A stretch of DNA of 53,568 nt from Acidobacteriaceae bacterium (GTDB lineage Bacteria; Acidobacteriota; Terriglobia; Terriglobales; Acidobacteriaceae). The stretch is taken from positions 1-53,568 of the forward strand of contig PKUV01000013.1 of assembly GCA_003131315.1 (NCBI GenBank), given 5' to 3'. Within the stretch, counting starts at the first letter, position 1, and every line of letters starts with the position of its first letter. Of the stretch, positions 24,187 through 33,901 are shown piece by piece. The position numbers and the translations under genes are program-made. The notes below the pieces were generated by a model. It was not told the DNA's origin. It did no database searches and saw nothing but the letters and a program-made list of their open reading frames with translations.

Positions 24187-24267
24187 CCTGTAGAGACGCG
24201 GCTTGCCCCGTCTCTACAGGCGGAAGAAATTTTCGCATCGCTAAGCGATACCCCGATACGAACCTCA
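24187..24267. repeat. Palindromic elements after PBP1A (two families)
   Basis: GTAGAGACGCGGCTTGCC/CCGTCTCTAC hairpin at 24189-24219, then GCATCGCTAAGCGATACCCCGATACGAACC at 24236-24266. The second is a copy of the element also found at 28141-28212, 33826-33901 and, inverted, 51957-51985. Confidence 0.65.
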
Positions 24268-25467
24268 CCAGAGCAACTTCCGCATCAGTCGGCCAATGCG
24301 CACGAATCGATAAAGAGGAAAAAGTGCTTCCGGCAATCGCACCGCCGCAATATCTCCCGCGCCCGGCGTCCAGACCAGCCGCCAGAGATATCGCAAACGG
24401 TCGCCGCGTCGCTCACGCAGTTTCAGGATCAGCCGGAAGTATTCCGTGGATTCGAAATCATAGGCCGCACCGCGAGCGAGACGCTCGGCGAATTCGCTGC
24501 CGAGAGCGGGCACCCGAGGATCGGCCGCAATCATTTCCTCCGCGGGTTTGGAAAGCTCCGCTCGAAGCACGTTCTTCACCAGCCAGAAACTTACGCCGAG
24601 AATACGAGCGATTCCCAGGGCGCGCGCTTGGGAAAACACCAGCGAGTAGTCGATGGTCTCGGTTCGCAAAGTCTCCGCAATGTCCGAAAGCCAGATCAGC
24701 CGCGTCCAAAGATGCTTGGCGGCGTGCAGGCACAGCACCAGCAGCGAATCAACGGGAGACAGGCAAGGCACTTCGCACCCGCCCGCAACTGTGCGGCCGG
24801 CGCGCGCCAGCAGATCCTCCAGGCCCAGATCAACCGCATAGAAATGCGGCAGCAACGCCCACTGCAGTTCGACCAGGTGCTTGCCCGCTGTGCTATCAAA
24901 CGAGCGCTCGTAGCCTGTCCGCAGCCACAATCGCTCGACGGCCGAGGTAAGGTCCGCGGAAGGGCGATATCCGATTTCAGCAAGAGCCTGCTTCGCTGGC
25001 TCGAAGGCCGCGGGAGAGATCAGGAAGTCGAGATCCGAAAAACTTCGCAGTCCCAGATCGAGGTAAAGCGATTGCGCCAGCACCGGCCCTTTGTACGGGA
25101 GAGCCCGCAACTGCCTGTGCTCGAAGTGCTGCATGATGCGCGCCAGTTCGACGGTGAACCATAAGCTGCGCCGCAGGTTCGCTTCGTACGCAGATCGCAG
25201 TGAGCGCTCGATTTCCGGCGGAAGCCCGCGACCATGTTCGACGCGAGCATGTTCGATCAGGTTGCGCGCCGCGAGCGGAAGAACTCCATGGTGCTCAGCG
25301 AGGCGAAGGAGTTCGCTCCAGTCGAGCGTTGAGAGATTCCAATTCGCAATGCGATCGAGGCGCTCCGGAGCCAGCTCCGTGCCGGCTAACGTGCACAGGA
25401 GCACGAATTCATCGTCTTTTTGTGGCGCAGTGCTCGACATGGGAGACTGAGGCAAGAGTTCGGTCAT
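24265..25467 (-). CDS. Nucleotidyltransferase-fold protein of RiPP-cluster type
   Basis: 400-residue protein resembling the uncharacterised nucleotidyltransferase family (PF14907-like). The key segment is RALPYKGPVLAQSLYLDLG followed by RSFSDLDFLI, where the D-x-D pair matches the metal-binding motif of the polymerase-beta fold. Two further helical regions carry conserved His-Trp pairs such as CLHAAKHLW. This family is often found beside PqqD-like and lasso- or radical-SAM peptide genes. Here it is divergent from the ABC exporter of the cluster. The substrate is unknown; modification of the peptide by nucleotidyl transfer is inference. Confidence 0.75.
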   Translation of the reverse strand: MTELLPQSPMSSTAPQKDDEFVLLCTLAGTELAPERLDRIANWNLSTLDWSELLRLAEHHGVLPLAARNLIEHARVEHGRGLPPEIERSLRSAYEANLRRSLWFTVELARIMQHFEHRQLRALPYKGPVLAQSLYLDLGLRSFSDLDFLISPAAFEPAKQALAEIGYRPSADLTSAVERLWLRTGYERSFDSTAGKHLVELQWALLPHFYAVDLGLEDLLARAGRTVAGGCEVPCLSPVDSLLVLCLHAAKHLWTRLIWLSDIAETLRTETIDYSLVFSQARALGIARILGVSFWLVKNVLRAELSKPAEEMIAADPRVPALGSEFAERLARGAAYDFESTEYFRLILKLRERRGDRLRYLWRLVWTPGAGDIAAVRLPEALFPLYRFVRIGRLMRKLLW

Positions 25468-25554
25468 GGAAATTCAGCATCTCGAGGCGCGTCAATGTTA
25501 GAGCATGTGCGGGCTGCCTAAACAGCTTACGGAAAAGGTACTCTCTGCGCGGCA

Positions 25555-25738
25555 GTCTGACCGCAGCGGCTAAAGCCGGTGCTGAAGAAAGCCCGTTATC
25601 GCAGCGCTAAAGCGCTGCGCCACCCAAAATCAATAGGGATCGCGAATCGCCACTATAATACAGAGTCTTCGGTGCGCGTCCGAACCTCGGTTCGCTATTC
25701 GCTGTTCGCGCTTTCGCAATTCGTCGTTCGCTATTTCA
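25555..25738. repeat. Palindromes and GTTCGC words in the divergent gap
   Basis: GCAGCGGCTAAAGCCG-like and GCAGCGCTAAAGCGCTGC hairpins at 25560-25615, then one-armed GTTCGCTATTCGCTGTTCGC words at 25688-25735. They fill the 276-bp gap between the divergent nucleotidyltransferase and ABC genes. Confidence 0.6.
25654..25659 (+). promoter_or_regulatory. Consensus -10 box before the ABC transporter genes
   Basis: TATAAT, about 85 bases before the ABC ATPase start. The -35 region at the right distance (CAATAG) is poor, so an activator or weak promoter is possible. Confidence 0.35.
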
Positions 25739-25743
25739 CTGTC

Positions 25744-26529
25744 ATGGACCAAGTCGTCTTCGAATCCGTCCGCAAGATCTTTCGTCATCGTCCGGCGCTG
25801 TTCAACTGGCTTGGACGGGAGCGGGGCGGCGAAACCATTGCTTTGAAAGACGTTTCTTTTTCGGCAGCGCGCTCGGAGGTCTTGGTGCTGCTCGGCCCGA
25901 ACGGCAGCGGAAAAACCACGGCCCTCAAGTTGATCTCTACCATGCTCCTGCCCGATGCTGGGTCGGTACGAGTGGGCGGCTTCGATGCGCGGCGCGATGC
26001 CGGTGCAGTCCGGCGGCAAGTCGGCATCGCCGTGGCCGCGGAGCGCTCGTTCTTCCCTCGTCTCTCGGCTCGTGAGAACCTCGATTTCTTTGCCGCCCTC
26101 GACGAAGTCTCCCGCAGCGAGCGAGCACATCGGATCAAAGAGGTTCTCCGCGATACCGGCCTCGAAGAGCAGGCCGACACGCTGGTCATGAAGTTCTCCA
26201 GCGGCATGTACCAGCGGCTGGGGATCGCGCGCGCCCTGGTGAAGCGCCCCAGCGTGCTTTTGCTCGACGAACCGACGCGCAGCCTCGACGCCGCCACCAC
26301 GGCACACTTCTGGGCCACGATCCGTGCCCTGGCGCGGCAAGAGACCACGGTTCTGCTCGCCACCCACAACTTCGCGGAAGCGGCCGCCGTTGCAGATCGC
26401 CTGCTCCTGCTGCATCGCGGCGAATTGCTCGCCGACCGCTCCGTGGGTGACGGCGAAAGCGCGGACGCACTGCGCTCTTTCTACTTTCGCATGACCGGCG
26501 AGATCGATGAGGCGATTTGTAATTGGTAA
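25744..26529 (+). CDS. ABC transporter ATP-binding protein (exporter of the peptide cluster)
   Basis: Cytoplasmic ATPase subunit, 261 residues from the ATG at 25744. Walker A is GPNGSGKTT, the signature is SSGMYQRLGIARALV, Walker B is VLLLDEPTRSLD, and the H-loop is LLATHN. All residues needed for ATP hydrolysis are present. An unusual N-terminal segment, KIFRHRPALFNWLGRERGGE, precedes the first strand, as in ABC-2 exporters of the sugar/peptide export type. It is followed by its permease gene at 26612, and with the downstream precursor and maturation genes it is the likely exporter of the modified peptide. No clear ribosome-binding site. Confidence 0.9.
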   Translation: MDQVVFESVRKIFRHRPALFNWLGRERGGETIALKDVSFSAARSEVLVLLGPNGSGKTTALKLISTMLLPDAGSVRVGGFDARRDAGAVRRQVGIAVAAERSFFPRLSARENLDFFAALDEVSRSERAHRIKEVLRDTGLEEQADTLVMKFSSGMYQRLGIARALVKRPSVLLLDEPTRSLDAATTAHFWATIRALARQETTVLLATHNFAEAAAVADRLLLLHRGELLADRSVGDGESADALRSFYFRMTGEIDEAICNW

Positions 26530-26607
26530 TTTGTAATTGGTAATTTCGAACCAGGCGCTCTGAGCGATATATTCAGAAACACAATTACCAATTACAAATC
26601 ACAAATT
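26515..26607. repeat. Word-repeat palindrome (AATTGGTAATTTGT type)
   Basis: Left arm 26515-26546 repeats TTTGTAATTGGTAA; right arm 26582-26607 carries CAATTACCAATTACAAATC. It spans the gap between the ABC ATPase and permease genes and is far more AT-rich than its surroundings. A mixed relative lies at 48228-48290. Confidence 0.8.
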
Positions 26608-26611
26608 TCTT

Positions 26612-27412
26612 ATGACCTCGACTCTCGACAAGCTCTTCGCCATCCTGCGGCGCGATCTGCTCACGGCCATCCGCCACCGCAGCGGTTTCGTCGTTCAGCT
26701 GGTCGGAGTGTTCACCGAATTGGCGGCTTTTTATTTTCTGTCCCGCGCCATCGGTCCCGGCTTTCGTCCCGGTGGCGTCGAGTACTTCCCCTTCCTTCTG
26801 GTGGGCACTGGCGTCTACACGTTCTTCGTAATGAGCGCGCAAGCCTTCCTGAGCGCGGTGCAGGAAGCACAGCAGACGGGAACGCTGGAAGTGCTTATGA
26901 CGACCTCCACCGCCCCGGCCGAGCTCGTCATCCTCAGCTCCATTTCCGCGTTTGCCGGAAACCTGGTCAATCTGCTGGTCTATCTTTTCGCGGGGGTGGC
27001 AGTTTTCCGGGCATCGATTCATGCCAACTTTCTCTCGTGCGCGGCAGTATTGATTTTTTCTCTGGCGATCGCCTTGGCCCTGGGGATCGCCGCGGCAACG
27101 CTTCAGGTTGCGTTCCAGAAAGGCTCGGCTCTGCTGTGGCTGCTCGGTTCCGGACTCTGGTTTCTGAGCGGAACCATGTTCCCGATCCAGAGCTTGCCCC
27201 GCCCGCTGGAGCTTCTCGCTCGCGCGGTTCCTCTCACTTACGCCATCGATGGAATGCGCCGGGCGCTGCTGGAAGGGCAGCCCATGACGGCGATGGCTCC
27301 CACACTGGCCGTCCTGGCCGGTTTTAGCGTGGTCCTGCTTCCGCTCGCGCTCGCCGGCCTGTCGCTAAGTTTGCGGCGGGCGCGGCAGGACGGAACCCTC
27401 TCATTTTATTGA
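26612..27412 (+). CDS. ABC-2 type transporter permease
   Basis: Integral membrane subunit of the exporter, 266 residues, six predicted hydrophobic segments. After a cytoplasmic N-terminus (LFAILRRDLLTAIRHRSGF) come the first helix and the ABC-2 coupling region TGTLEVLMTTSTAP. The end segment SGTMFPIQSLPRPLELLARAVPLTYAIDGMRRALL is a hallmark of ABC-2 permeases. The gene follows the ATPase gene on the same strand. Export of the 27545-27727 peptide product is inferred from position only. Confidence 0.9.
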   Translation: MTSTLDKLFAILRRDLLTAIRHRSGFVVQLVGVFTELAAFYFLSRAIGPGFRPGGVEYFPFLLVGTGVYTFFVMSAQAFLSAVQEAQQTGTLEVLMTTSTAPAELVILSSISAFAGNLVNLLVYLFAGVAVFRASIHANFLSCAAVLIFSLAIALALGIAAATLQVAFQKGSALLWLLGSGLWFLSGTMFPIQSLPRPLELLARAVPLTYAIDGMRRALLEGQPMTAMAPTLAVLAGFSVVLLPLALAGLSLSLRRARQDGTLSFY

Positions 27413-27452
27413 GGATGTTGATTCGCTTTCTCCGGATTGCGGCCAAGTCATA

Positions 27453-27482
27453 TTGGCACTGGGGAAAGCCGTGTAGTACACT
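27453..27482 (+). promoter_or_regulatory. Promoter of the precursor-peptide gene with palindrome
   Basis: TTGGCA (27453-27458), 18-base spacer, TACACT (27477-27482). The arms GTGTA and TACAC around one base (27471-27481) overlap the -10 and could be a repressor site. Predicted start near 27489, about 55 bases before the peptide ATG. Confidence 0.45.
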
Positions 27483-27544
27483 GCCCTTACTCTTATCAAA
27501 ACTGGGGGATAAGTCAGCTGTTTGACCAACTGGCTTGACCAACT

Positions 27545-27727
27545 ATGAACGACAATAGAACCACTCGCGAGAAGCCTCAGCAACCGGGCAACGCGAGTAA
27601 AGAGAAGAAGCTTTACCAGAAGCCGGCATTCCGCTACGAACGAGTTTTCGAGACGCTCGCTCTATCTTGCGGCAAGGTCGTCGTCACCCAAGGCACATGT
27701 CAGGGGGCCTCGCGAAAAACTTCCTGA
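27545..27727 (+). CDS. Putative RiPP precursor peptide, 60 residues
   Basis: Small gene placed between the exporter and maturation genes, with its own promoter. The charged leader (residues 1-30) contains the KLYQKPAFRYE segment, similar in style to YxKP leaders bound by PqqD-like chaperones. The C-terminal part has two cysteines, C42 and C52, in LALSCGKVVV and TQGTCQGAS, followed by a basic RKTS end. I propose residues from about 38 as the core, with Cys and neighbouring residues as targets of the radical-SAM enzyme. Its last 31 bases overlap the start of the next gene if that gene begins at 27697. No family is recognised with certainty. Confidence 0.65.
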   Translation: MNDNRTTREKPQQPGNASKEKKLYQKPAFRYERVFETLALSCGKVVVTQGTCQGASRKTS

Positions 27728-28449
27728 CGCTGGAAAACACCCCGAGTTCGCCGCGCTCGAATTGGAGCGCGGTACGCTCAGATTTGGTGGCGGACGCTTT
27801 GCGTCGCAGCGGTCGTTTGCGGGTGCGTCTGCGGGTTCACGGGGAAATTCACGGCGAAAGCATGCTGCCCACTCTTTGGCCGGGCGATGTGGTCGAGATC
27901 GAAAGCTGCTTGCTCGAAGACATCCGGCCCGGCGAGATCGTGCTCGCCCGGCGTGACGACCGCCTCGTCCTACATCGCCTCGTCGCTCCCTGCACAGCGA
28001 ATGGTTTCCTGCTGCGCGGCGATTCCGTGCCTGGTCCTGATCCTCTGTTCCCTCCCGAAGCATTGCTGGGGCGGCTTGTGCGCGGCGCTGACGAAGGGCG
28101 AGCCGCGTCTGCACGGGCTGCGGAAAAAGTCGCCTTTCGATGCCCAGCCCCTAAAGGGGCATCTGATTTCGAAGAAGTTACGGTATCGCTAAAGCGATAC
28201 CCTGATACGAACCGGAGTTTTTCCGCAGCCTGTACTGCCGCTCTGCGCCCTGGATTTGGCGAGAAGTGGTTCGGCGTGAAATGGTCTCGCGCGCTGGGAA
28301 TGCTGCTCTGTCATTGCGGCATGGCGCGCCGTCTTGCTCTGAAACTTCATAGCCGCTGGAAGGCATCGGCGCGCGAACTGCGAAACCCTGAACACGGTGC
28401 GGAGATAAGTTCCGCAGAGCTGGGTTCTGCAGAGCGGGGAGCGTTGTGA
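27697..28449 (+). CDS. S26-like signal peptidase with Ser/His dyad (peptide cluster)
   Basis: About 250 residues from the ATG at 27697; GTG/TTG codons at 27787-27790 are alternative starts. VHGEIHGESMLPTLWPGDVV holds the nucleophile (Ser55), and VLHRLV (His93) replaces the Lys of ordinary bacterial leader peptidase, as in the SipW/ER type. RGDSVPGPDP completes the S24/S26 fold. No transmembrane anchor is seen, so it may act in the cytoplasm on the precursor. A 115-bp palindromic element is inserted in frame at 28116-28230, adding roughly 38 unrelated residues. After it the sequence returns to a helical ARRLALKLHSRW tail. The stop overlaps the next ATG. Confidence 0.75.
   Translation: MSGGLAKNFLTLENTPSSPRSNWSAVRSDLVADALRRSGRLRVRLRVHGEIHGESMLPTLWPGDVVEIESCLLEDIRPGEIVLARRDDRLVLHRLVAPCTANGFLLRGDSVPGPDPLFPPEALLGRLVRGADEGRAASARAAEKVAFRCPAPKGASDFEEVTVSLKRYPDTNRSFSAACTAALRPGFGEKWFGVKWSRALGMLLCHCGMARRLALKLHSRWKASARELRNPEHGAEISSAELGSAERGAL
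28116..28230. repeat. Palindromic MITE-like element inside the peptidase gene
   Basis: 13-bp perfect terminal inverted repeats, GGCTGCGGAAAAA at 28116-28128 and its complement at 28218-28230. They enclose two inner hairpins: GCCCAGCCCCTAAAGGGGC-like near 28142-28162, and GGTATCGCTAAAGCGATACC near 28182-28203. The inner part is the same element as at 33826-33901. Confidence 0.8.
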
Positions 28450-29270
28450 TGGCCGCGCCCCGAAAAGTCGCGTGTGTCGAGATCGGAGGGATTCCGATTG
28501 CTTTGTCCACCTGTGACGAGGGCTTTCTCGATCTGCTGCGCCAGCGCTATGACGGGTTCCTGAGTTCTTCGCGTCCCGAGTTTGAGCTGGAGTTTGATCT
28601 CACGAGCACGGGACCGGTTTCCGATGACGACGTTCGGGTGCGCCGCGAAGGTGACGAGTGGCTCATCGAGCGCGGAGACTTCCACGCCCGCTGGGACCCA
28701 CGCACCGGACGAGGCAGCGTGCGGCAAAATGCCAACCCGTATTCCCTCGATTCGGTGCTACGCATTCTGCACAGCCTGATTCTTGCCGAGCGCGGCGGAT
28801 TCCTGCTGCACGCCGCCAGCGCGATTTGCGATGGACGGGCTTATCTGTTCTCGGGGGTATCGGGCGCGGGCAAAACCACGATGACGCGGCTGGCGCCGGC
28901 GGACATCACCCTGCTTACCGACGAAATTTCCTACCTGCGCCCGGGCGCCGACGGGTACGCGGCATTCGGTACTCCTTTCGCCGGAGAGCTGGCCAAGGCC
29001 GGTGAGAACTGCACAGCTCCGGTCTCCGCTCTGTTTTTTCTGGAAAAGGGTCCGGAGAACCGCGTCGATGAGTTGTCGTCCGCCGAGGCCGTCCGCCGCC
29101 TGATGCGCAATATTCTGTTCTTCGCCGAGGACCAGGGCCTGGTGGAAAAGCTTCTCGCCACCGCTTGCGATTTCGTCGGCAGGGTTCCCATTCGCCGCCT
29201 GACGTTCTATCCTGATGCCAGGGTGTGGGAGCAAATCCGTAACTTCCAGGGGGTGCCAGAGCATGCCTGA
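28449..29270 (+). CDS. HPr-kinase-like P-loop ATPase of the peptide cluster
   Basis: 273 residues from the ATG at 28449, which overlaps the previous stop (TGATG). The P-loop SGVSGAGKTT near residue 137 follows GGFLLHAASAIC, the usual context in HPr kinase/phosphorylase C-domain relatives, and LLTDEISYL supplies the acidic Walker-B-like segment. The N-terminal 110 residues are beta-rich and unlike HPr kinase. Such HprK-like proteins are known in lasso-peptide and other RiPP clusters, some acting as peptide kinases. Phosphorylation of the precursor is thus one possible role. Its stop overlaps the PqqD-like gene by eight bases. Confidence 0.78.
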   Translation: MAAPRKVACVEIGGIPIALSTCDEGFLDLLRQRYDGFLSSSRPEFELEFDLTSTGPVSDDDVRVRREGDEWLIERGDFHARWDPRTGRGSVRQNANPYSLDSVLRILHSLILAERGGFLLHAASAICDGRAYLFSGVSGAGKTTMTRLAPADITLLTDEISYLRPGADGYAAFGTPFAGELAKAGENCTAPVSALFFLEKGPENRVDELSSAEAVRRLMRNILFFAEDQGLVEKLLATACDFVGRVPIRRLTFYPDARVWEQIRNFQGVPEHA

Positions 29271-29571
29271 AGATTGCATTTACATTGCGCGCAGTTCTGC
29301 CATTGCCGCCCGCGCGCTGGCTGGCGAAATGATGGTCATGAATTCGGCCGATTCGACGTTCTTCACGCTGAACGAGGTCGCAACCGCCATTTTCCAGGCT
29401 GCCGACGGCCACACTCCTCTGCGGGAGATTGTCCGCGACCGAATCTGCGAGCAGTTTGATGTCGATTCCGAACAGGCCCAGGCAGACGCCGAGCAGTTCG
29501 TCGCCGAGCTTTCCAGCCATGGAATTCTTCTCGTTTCGAATCAACCGCTGGCCCCGGAGGCTCCCCGATGA
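29263..29571 (+). CDS. PqqD-family peptide chaperone
   Basis: 102 residues starting at the ATG at 29263 (MPEDCIYIARSS), eight bases inside the end of the HprK-like gene. The sequence MMVMNSADSTFFTLNEVATAIFQAADGHTPLREIVRDRI is the RRE (RiPP recognition element) winged-helix pattern of PqqD relatives, which bind the leader of the precursor and present it to the modifying enzyme. DSEQAQADAEQFVAELSSHGILL ends the domain. Its stop overlaps the radical-SAM start by four bases, so the pair is translationally coupled, as expected for a working RRE-enzyme couple. Confidence 0.88.
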   Translation: MPEDCIYIARSSAIAARALAGEMMVMNSADSTFFTLNEVATAIFQAADGHTPLREIVRDRICEQFDVDSEQAQADAEQFVAELSSHGILLVSNQPLAPEAPR

Positions 29572-30686
29572 GCCTGATGAGCGAGGTGGGCCAGAAGGCA
29601 TTTAACCTGGGCGTGCCCCTTGCCGTGCACATGGATGTCACGTATCGCTGCAACGAGCGCTGCGTGCATTGTTATCTCGATCACGATGACCACGGCGAGA
29701 TGACGACCGCCGAAATCAAGGACGCGCTCGATCAACTGGCCGAGGCAGGCGTTTTTTTTCTCTCGTTCAGCGGCGGCGAGGTCTTCCTGCGCCGCGACTT
29801 CTTTGAGATTGTCGAATACGCCCGGCGTCTCCTGTTCAACGTCAAGATCAAAACCAACGCGGTTATGATCCACGAAAAAGAAGCGCGGAGAATCCGCGAA
29901 CTGGCCGTAGACACGATCCAGATCAGCGTCTACTCGCATCGTCCCGAAGTTCACGATGCCATCACCAAGCTGCCGCACTCGTTCGAGCGCACCATCAAAG
30001 CAATTCGCTTCTTACACGAACAAGGGGTGCGAGTGACCATCGCTAATGTGCTGATGACCGTGAATTCTTCCGATCACAGCGGGGTGCAAGAACTTGCCGC
30101 CGAACTCGGCGTTCAGTACACGCTCGATCCCACGATCACGCCTATGATGGATGGCGACACATCCGTTCTCTCGCTGCGCATCCCGGGAGAAGAACTCACG
30201 GAAGTTTTCCACAATCCCGCGCTGGTCGGCAGCCAGGAAGAGTTCTGTGCTCCTCCCAAGCCCCCCTCGGAGGAGGATCTTGAGGGTTACTCGTGCAGCG
30301 CGGGCCATTCTTTCTGCTACATTTCGCCCTATGGGGACGTCTTTCCCTGCGTGCAGTTTCCACTTCCCACGGGAAATATTCGTCAGCAGAAGTTTTTGGA
30401 TATCTGGAATTTATCCCCCGAGCTGAAAAAGGTTCGCTCGATCCAGGCCAAAGACCTGACCGTCTGCTCGTCGTGCTCGCACGTCAGCAGTTGCACGCGT
30501 TGTCCGGGCTTGGCCTATATGGAAGGAAGTATGCGGGGCCCATCCACCGCGGATTGCGAGAAATCGTTCTACCGGACGGGCGTGCCGACGGCGAACATGC
30601 TGCAGCAAGGGCTGTCGAAACCACGCACTTTATCAGGCAACCCCGCACCGCTGATCCAGATTCGGCCGATTGCCGTGCCCGCTTGA
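29568..30686 (+). CDS. Radical SAM/SPASM peptide-maturation enzyme
   Basis: 372 residues. The radical-SAM cluster motif is C28-x3-C32-x2-C35 (CNERCVHC), followed by the GGE motif in FSFSGGEVFLRRDF. The C-terminal third is a SPASM domain with several Cys-rich groups: FCYISPYGDVFPCVQFP, VCSSCSHVSSCTRCPG and a last Cys near DCEKSF. These would hold one or two auxiliary iron-sulfur clusters, as in PqqE and sactipeptide or ranthipeptide maturases. It overlaps the PqqD-like gene, and the cluster ends here, 14 bases from a convergent gene. The expected reaction is a C-C or thioether crosslink on the 60-residue precursor; the exact bond is unknown. Confidence 0.92.
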   Translation: MSLMSEVGQKAFNLGVPLAVHMDVTYRCNERCVHCYLDHDDHGEMTTAEIKDALDQLAEAGVFFLSFSGGEVFLRRDFFEIVEYARRLLFNVKIKTNAVMIHEKEARRIRELAVDTIQISVYSHRPEVHDAITKLPHSFERTIKAIRFLHEQGVRVTIANVLMTVNSSDHSGVQELAAELGVQYTLDPTITPMMDGDTSVLSLRIPGEELTEVFHNPALVGSQEEFCAPPKPPSEEDLEGYSCSAGHSFCYISPYGDVFPCVQFPLPTGNIRQQKFLDIWNLSPELKKVRSIQAKDLTVCSSCSHVSSCTRCPGLAYMEGSMRGPSTADCEKSFYRTGVPTANMLQQGLSKPRTLSGNPAPLIQIRPIAVPA

Positions 30687-33778: not shown

Positions 33779-33901
33779 AGACGCGGCTTGCCGCGTCTCA
33801 GATCGCCGACAAACTCGGATGTCGACGCCCAGCCCCTAAAGGGGCGTCTGATTCGGGGAAACTTAGCGGCATCCCTAAAGCGATGCCCTGACACGAACCC
33901 A
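33776..33901. repeat. Palindromic elements before the TonB receptor gene end
   Basis: GAGACGCGGC-TT-GCCGCGTCTC at 33779-33800, then GACGCCCAGCCCCTAAAGGGGCGTC (33825-33849) and GGCATCCCTAAAGCGATGCC followed by CTGACACGAACC. The latter pair is a full copy of the element inserted in the S26-like gene. Confidence 0.7.

Follow-up and report, generated by a model that had tools for sequence, protein, structure and literature searches.

The stretch of DNA analysed here (the window; 53,568 nucleotides of contig PKUV01000013.1 from an Acidobacteriaceae bacterium) contains, at positions 24265–30686, a gene cluster for a ribosomally synthesized and post-translationally modified peptide (RiPP). The set formed by a short precursor peptide, an S26-type peptidase, an HprK-like kinase, a PqqD-like protein and a radical S-adenosylmethionine (SAM)/SPASM enzyme recurs across Acidobacteriota. 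Because the same non-radical gene set and a related leader motif are reported for the linear polyphosphorylated peptides (LPPs) of Bacillota (Popov et al., May 2026, PMC13381572, main text), we lean, by a modest degree, towards reading the cluster as an LPP-like pathway supplemented with a radical SAM/SPASM maturase.

The 60-residue open reading frame (ORF) at 27545–27727 (plus strand) is, by comparison across loci, almost certainly the precursor of the cluster, a conserved peptide that goes together with a constant set of enzymes. It has no family match among Pfam and NCBIfam-type curated models. In a 17-row alignment of the window peptide with 16 others, ten columns are invariant (M1, Y24, P27, E32, A39, L40, C42, K44, C52 and S60), and the small gene is a conserved precursor in the same slot, as a preliminary description of this DNA had supposed. 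The ratio of nonsynonymous to synonymous substitution rates (dN/dS), calculated from 12 main-locus genes, is 0.235 for the gene as a whole; it is lowest in the leader motif (0.065) and higher in the core (0.31) and over the first 20 residues (0.48). The precursor gene is under purifying selection.

A larger sample was drawn from 144 ORF hits over the fetched loci, which yielded 98 unique precursor tails; a distant family described below lies outside the 98 owing to the strict E-value. A C-terminal Ser is present in 95 of these tails, a count that overstates independence, since Ser-ending precursors went into the profile and many of the tails are related. The other three are broken (one has a run-on frame, one is a fusion and one stops prematurely) and were excluded from the motif counts, and a decayed copy at L186:8899–9423 is not among the 98. 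All 95 Ser-ending tails contain C-x-K and exactly one further Cys. The YxxP motif of the leader (YxKP at 27614–27625 in the window) keeps its Tyr and Pro in all 94 close precursors that show this part, and the distance from this Tyr to the core Cys is 18 residues without exception; the 95th tail begins at a contig edge. Downstream of this motif, FET occurs in 72 of the 95 tails and FVT in 19. The core, which has the form C-G-K-x(n)-C-x(n)-Ser-COOH at 27668–27724 in the window, measures 18 residues from its first Cys in 78 of 95 tails. Seventy-two cores were tabulated after filtering for a length of 18 residues and a Cys at position 11, which fixes C1, K3, C11 and S18, so that the informative motif counts are those of the 98 and 95 tails; within the 72, positions 4–10 and 12–17 are highly variable. 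The penultimate residue of the tails also varies (N, T, S, V, A, R, L and M all occur) and therefore serves as an internal control for the conserved terminal Ser.

The distribution of the cluster was assessed by searching 61 genomes (its own and 60 relatives) with the radical SAM protein. Matches with E < 1e-160 were obtained in 23 of 24 same-genus genomes, including its own, and in two of the 23 (G014 and G016) the gene is split in frame. In the sole exception, G021, the rest of the cluster runs off the contig end within the PqqD gene. Matches were also found in some genomes of the same family, and elsewhere in the family and phylum presence is patchy. The same-genus loci show stable synteny. 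The precursor was located in 17 of 20 fetched regions, with a stop in the L034 copy and the L050 copy downstream of the radical SAM gene; none was found at the remaining three of the 20 (L038, L045 and L051). Scanning public genomes with a radical SAM profile yielded 158 relatives, and the best 80 were analysed further; the titles of 78 of these name Acidobacteriota groups, several of them Candidatus Sulfotelmatobacter, and the other two are titled Burkholderiales and Proteobacteria and may be mis-binned. Fourteen of the 80 have less than 2.6 kb of DNA in front of the radical SAM ORF and were excluded. Among the remaining 66 loci, the precursor was found in 61, the S26 peptidase in 65, the HprK-like gene in 62 and the PqqD gene in 65. 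The loci were picked by their radical SAM gene, and the counts therefore show the partners of that gene rather than its own frequency. The proposal that this is a RiPP-type cluster is supported.

All eight genes named in the preliminary description were recovered between 24265 and 30686 in the ORF list of the window, and seven of them have a clear or fair family assignment, the 60-residue peptide being the exception. The last four genes overlap, much as had been described. The S26 and HprK-like genes share 4 nt, the HprK-like and PqqD genes 8 nt if PqqD starts at 29263, and the PqqD and radical SAM genes 4 nt. This start of PqqD is likelier than that of its listed ORF, which begins further upstream. 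Seven of the eight genes, all but the transferase gene described below, lie on the plus strand.

The S26-type (archaeal/SEC11-like) peptidase is encoded at 27667–28449, with an uncertain start (the listed ORF starts within the precursor gene). The protein scores just below the Pfam S24 cut-off (21.9 versus 23.3 bits) and has no stretch exceeding a Kyte–Doolittle value of 1.06 over 19 residues. In the alignment with its SEC11A signal-peptidase match, S65, H103 and D125 face a Ser, a His and an Asp, the catalytic triad of SEC11A. All three residues are invariant in 19 aligned homologues, an alignment that leaves out L032, in which the ORF was mis-picked. The HprK-like protein (28446–29270) falls below every curated family cut-off. 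Its P-loop residues G137, S139, G142, K143 and T145 are invariant in 18 rows, and its AlphaFold model (predicted local distance difference test (pLDDT) score of 89) matches the PEPCK/HprK fold in a fold search, with HprK/P at E of about 1e-4. Neither the kinase nor the S26 protein has a match in searches of plasmids. The PqqD-like protein (29263–29571; Pfam PqqD, E 2.2e-15) is a discrete RiPP recognition element (RRE), with the lasso peptide protein TbiB1 as its nearest solved chain (E 0.002). The radical SAM/SPASM enzyme (29568–30686; Pfam Radical_SAM, E 4e-26; SPASM, E 4e-11) has ten Cys that are invariant in 18 rows (C28, C32 and C35; C243, C261, C300, C303, C309, C312 and C330), and its nearest solved relatives are SkfB and PqqE.

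Upstream of the precursor lie a DrrA-like ATP-binding cassette (ABC) transporter ATPase gene (25744–26529; Pfam ABC_tran) and an ABC-2 type permease gene (26612–27412; Pfam ABC2_membrane). The listed ORF of the ATPase begins at 25579; same-genus conservation begins at 25744, the likelier start. On the minus strand, divergent from the operon, is the gene for a PF14907 nucleotidyltransferase-fold protein (24265–25467; Pfam NTP_transf_5, E 5.5e-58), in which the motif LR-x-F-x-D-x-D-x-L is conserved across 11 aligned rows, including one fragment.

According to the main text of the LPP report (PMC13381572), that pathway comprises a signal-peptidase-like leader protease, a discrete RRE, an HprK-like kinase and a nucleoside triphosphate (NTP) transferase. 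The leader carries YxxP…FET, in which YxxP is essential for RRE binding; the protease LppS cuts after FET, and the kinase LppK acts on core Ser3, just after FET, where an S3T change abolished phosphorylation. LPPs are described there as restricted to Bacillota, with lasso peptide loci in the same genomes, and the main text contains neither ‘radical SAM’ nor a word beginning ‘Acidobacter’. As far as that text describes it, the LPP system shares with the present one a Ser-His-Asp signal-peptidase-like leader peptidase (LppS being compared by description), a discrete RRE, an HprK-like kinase, an NTP transferase, an ABC exporter, a YxxP…F-E-T leader and lasso loci in the same genome. The two also differ. 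In the Acidobacteriota cluster FET lies two residues nearer to YxxP than in the LPP consensus, a radical SAM/SPASM enzyme is encoded within the operon, the core is C-x-K…C with a C-terminal Ser, and the exporter, where present, is an ABC-2 ATPase and permease rather than MsbA-like. Moreover, a Ser just after FET is not conserved in the 95 tails, in contrast to core Ser3 of the LPPs, and the phylum is Acidobacteriota rather than Bacillota.

The peptidase, RRE, kinase and transferase half of the gene set has thus already been published as LPP (PMC13381572, main text); what is new is the radical SAM/SPASM enzyme, the phylum, the core and the extra precursors that stand apart from any enzyme. The preliminary description, which had called the cluster undescribed and its mix of activities unusual, is therefore partly supported: the claim holds for the integrated radical SAM/SPASM part and fails for the other half. 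Searches of open-licence PubMed Central papers listed no description of the gene set with its radical SAM enzyme, and subscription atlases of radical SAM RiPPs may list the enzymes.

By direct precedent from the LPPs, functions can be proposed for the peptidase, the RRE and the kinase. The PqqD-like protein would very probably bind the leader, through YxKP. The S26 enzyme is likely to be the leader peptidase and would rather likely cut after T37 of F-E-T (27647–27655), a site suggested by the tail counts and by LppS. Cleavage before C42 by the A-x-A rule was our first reading (position −3 is A in 94 of 95 tails, and 88 of the 95 have S, A or T at −1); it now ranks behind the FET site, since cleavage after FET has been demonstrated for LppS. 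The HprK-like enzyme probably phosphorylates or polyphosphorylates the C-terminal Ser (S60 in the window), like the kinases of paeninodin-type lasso peptides. The phosphate is placed at the C terminus because the positions immediately following FET include no conserved Ser. In lasso peptides the C-terminal Ser is phosphorylated by HprK homologues, with a transferase adding hexoses to the phosphate (PMC8498205, accessible text). This precedent likewise weighs against calling the mix of activities unusual, as the preliminary description did. That phosphate may in turn receive a sugar or nucleotide from the PF14907 transferase, and the ABC pair, where present, would export the product.

The choice of the C-terminal Ser has a competitor. 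The product could instead be linear and phosphorylated at an internal Ser near the new N terminus, in the S41 region, as in a plain LPP, with the change made by the radical SAM enzyme minor or unrelated. LppK acts on core Ser3 just after FET and BsfK on ring Ser3, as the accessible accounts of these kinases state, and position 41 is Ser in 51 of the 95 tails. However, 24 tails have A there, 13 have T and the remainder have other residues, and in the LPPs an S3T change abolished phosphorylation; the C-terminal Ser is kept in 95 of 98 tails, and the adjacency of PqqD and radical SAM genes is kept in distant loci too. We consider the internal site unlikely.

The modification made by the radical SAM enzyme is the least certain step. 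Sactipeptides and ranthipeptides contain Cys thioethers made by radical SAM/SPASM enzymes, and the present cluster resembles theirs in its SPASM maturase and Cys-containing core, with SkfB as a nearest solved relative. It differs in that the RRE is discrete rather than fused, a kinase and a nucleotidyltransferase are added, and the thioether is a prediction. Tentatively, at slightly below even chances, the enzyme would modify the core at C-G-K…C, most likely by forming one or more Cys thioether crosslinks. Memberships in several other families were tried and rejected. The SynChlorMet cassette (NCBIfam ScmC–F) likewise combines an HprK-like protein, a PqqD-like protein and SPASM enzymes, and ScmC is the best family match of the kinase (E 9e-12), but the scores fall far below the curated cut-offs (ScmC 44.9/125, ScmD 23.7/100, ScmE 100.5/400 and ScmF 58.3/400 bits). 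Scores for the HPr-rel-A system (HprK_rel_A 16.9/200 and its PqqD partner 26.1/35 bits) and for pyrroloquinoline quinone (PQQ) and mycofactocin (PqqE 97.7/381 and mycofactocin maturase 133.1/265 bits) are also below the cut-offs.

A YxxP leader, a PqqD protein, an HprK-like kinase and an NTP transferase are also typical of paeninodin-like lasso clusters; the likeness extends to the discrete RRE, the [Y/W]xxP leader, the HprK homologue, the C-terminal Ser and the nucleotidyltransferase (PMC8498205, accessible text). A lasso peptide whose cyclase and B2 protease are supplied in trans would account for these features, and the genome does carry two lasso-type loci with PF13471 and Asn_synthase genes, on contigs C87 and C70. 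However, these loci have their own, weakly scoring PqqD matches, and no ring-forming Asp or Glu is conserved in the 72 tabulated cores. As had been noted previously, neither the macrolactam cyclase nor the B2 protease is encoded between 24265 and 30686, where the S26 and radical SAM genes take their place. The lasso reading of the cluster is therefore rejected as highly improbable. The C87 locus contains a small ORF with a YTKP motif.

Distant relatives of the precursor were identified by a precursor-only profile search of 396 genomes across the phylum, which gave 21 genomes, 15 of them with weak hits in other families. Sixteen of the 17 distant hit places lie in 15 fetched stretches, and G302 is outside the fetched set. 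Radical SAM and PqqD genes stand beside the peptide in 8 of the 15 stretches, found by the precursor profile alone, and an HprK-like gene is present in 6 of these 8. One stretch, L223, holds transferase, kinase, PqqD, radical SAM, peptide and S26 genes together; between its precursor and S26 genes (L223:8200–9618) there is another radical-SAM-like gene, which by eye looks like one of the B12-binding type. The Tyr-to-Cys distance is 18 in 15 of 15 distant peptides, which end in Ser in 14 cases and Thr in one. A profile built from 14 distant peptides, in searches that scored only part of the candidates, hit 59 of the 396 genomes. An HprK-like hit (E 1e-10) was found in 57 of these 59, whereas only 58 of the 337 genomes outside this group have one (Fisher p about 9e-34, without correction for kinship).

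Several observations weigh against an LPP-like pathway with a C-terminal phosphate and a radical crosslink. Crosslinking, phosphorylation, leader cleavage and export are all predictions. LPP and Bsf kinases, in the accessible accounts, use a Ser at core position 3 and not the C terminus, the overstated independence of the tail counts bears on that same terminus, and the kinase fold search puts PEPCK first, ahead of HprK. The structure model of the radical SAM enzyme is poor (pLDDT 59), so that no particular radical reaction is supported beyond the conserved Cys. Five of the 66 loci show no precursor, and 7 of the 15 distant-precursor stretches show none of the radical SAM, PqqD and kinase genes. 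Among the 46 loci with enough flank, the PF14907 transferase lies within 6 kb of the radical SAM gene in only 31 and the permease in only 13. Finally, 4 of the 66 loci have no clear local kinase, yet their precursors end in Ser; all six such genomes tested (these four and two distant ones) carry a kinase elsewhere. Two loci without a local kinase, L138 and L142, have a second PqqD-like match upstream of the precursor.

Precursors also occur away from the cluster. At least two precursor hits were found in 17 of 24 same-genus genomes, and none in one of the 24 (G014). Sixteen extra precursor places were fetched: 15 of these stretches, some of them short, are free of cluster enzymes, and the other, L198, is a main cluster. 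Nine of the 16, including one in the window’s own genome, are near recR. In that genome an intact solo precursor near dnaX and recR (L186:8899–9620, contig C158) is immediately preceded by the decayed copy, in which the first core Cys is changed and the frame runs on. The cluster precursor has a stop codon in G017 and is mostly deleted in G011, the enzymes are conserved in both, and intact solo precursors persist in these genomes. Because enzymes and solo precursors persist where the cluster precursor is lost, we propose that the extra precursors, many of them beside recR, would use the same enzymes in trans. In L214 a precursor adjoins the ABC ATPase and permease genes in the absence of the other enzymes, which fits export of the product by this pair.

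The same enzymes might make a conserved signal, envelope or cofactor-like peptide with a housekeeping role instead of an antibiotic-type product, following the logic of PQQ or mycofactocin. Such a role would suit the nearly genus-wide radical SAM gene (23 of 24 genomes at E < 1e-160), the stable synteny and the moderately conserved core. By contrast, the wide variation at core positions 4–10 and 12–17, the several different precursors per genome and the patchy occurrence elsewhere in the family and phylum argue against it, and we regard it as improbable.

Two further sequence features were noted. The stretch before the precursor (27440–27545) resembles that at L038, by eye, with TTGGCA followed by TAGTACACT, and may represent a shared promoter. 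A repetitive extragenic palindromic (REP)-like repeat with a GCCCCTAAAGGGGC core lies at 28095–28251, in frame within the S26 gene and after its catalytic part, and occurs again at 33805–33853, near 33832; the REP-like motif with CTGATT occurs 50 times in the genome, versus 0 for the reversed control.

To our knowledge, few peptide products have been characterized from the soil lineage Acidobacteria. It is conceivable, at a little under even chances, that the cluster represents a distinct, phylum-wide Acidobacteriota RiPP class, in which the short core is crosslinked by the radical SAM/SPASM enzyme at C-G-K…C, phosphorylated or polyphosphorylated at its C-terminal Ser and perhaps glycosylated, with one enzyme set serving several scattered precursors; the product would then more likely be a conserved signal or envelope peptide than an occasional antibiotic. 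The strict Tyr-to-Cys spacing and the C-terminal Ser offer direct mutational tests. If correct, the pathway would join radical crosslinking, HprK-type Ser phosphorylation and signal-peptidase-like leader removal, which are usually apart in RiPPs, would extend an LPP-like pathway from Bacillota to Acidobacteriota, and would make a conserved peptide from a major soil lineage available for testing.

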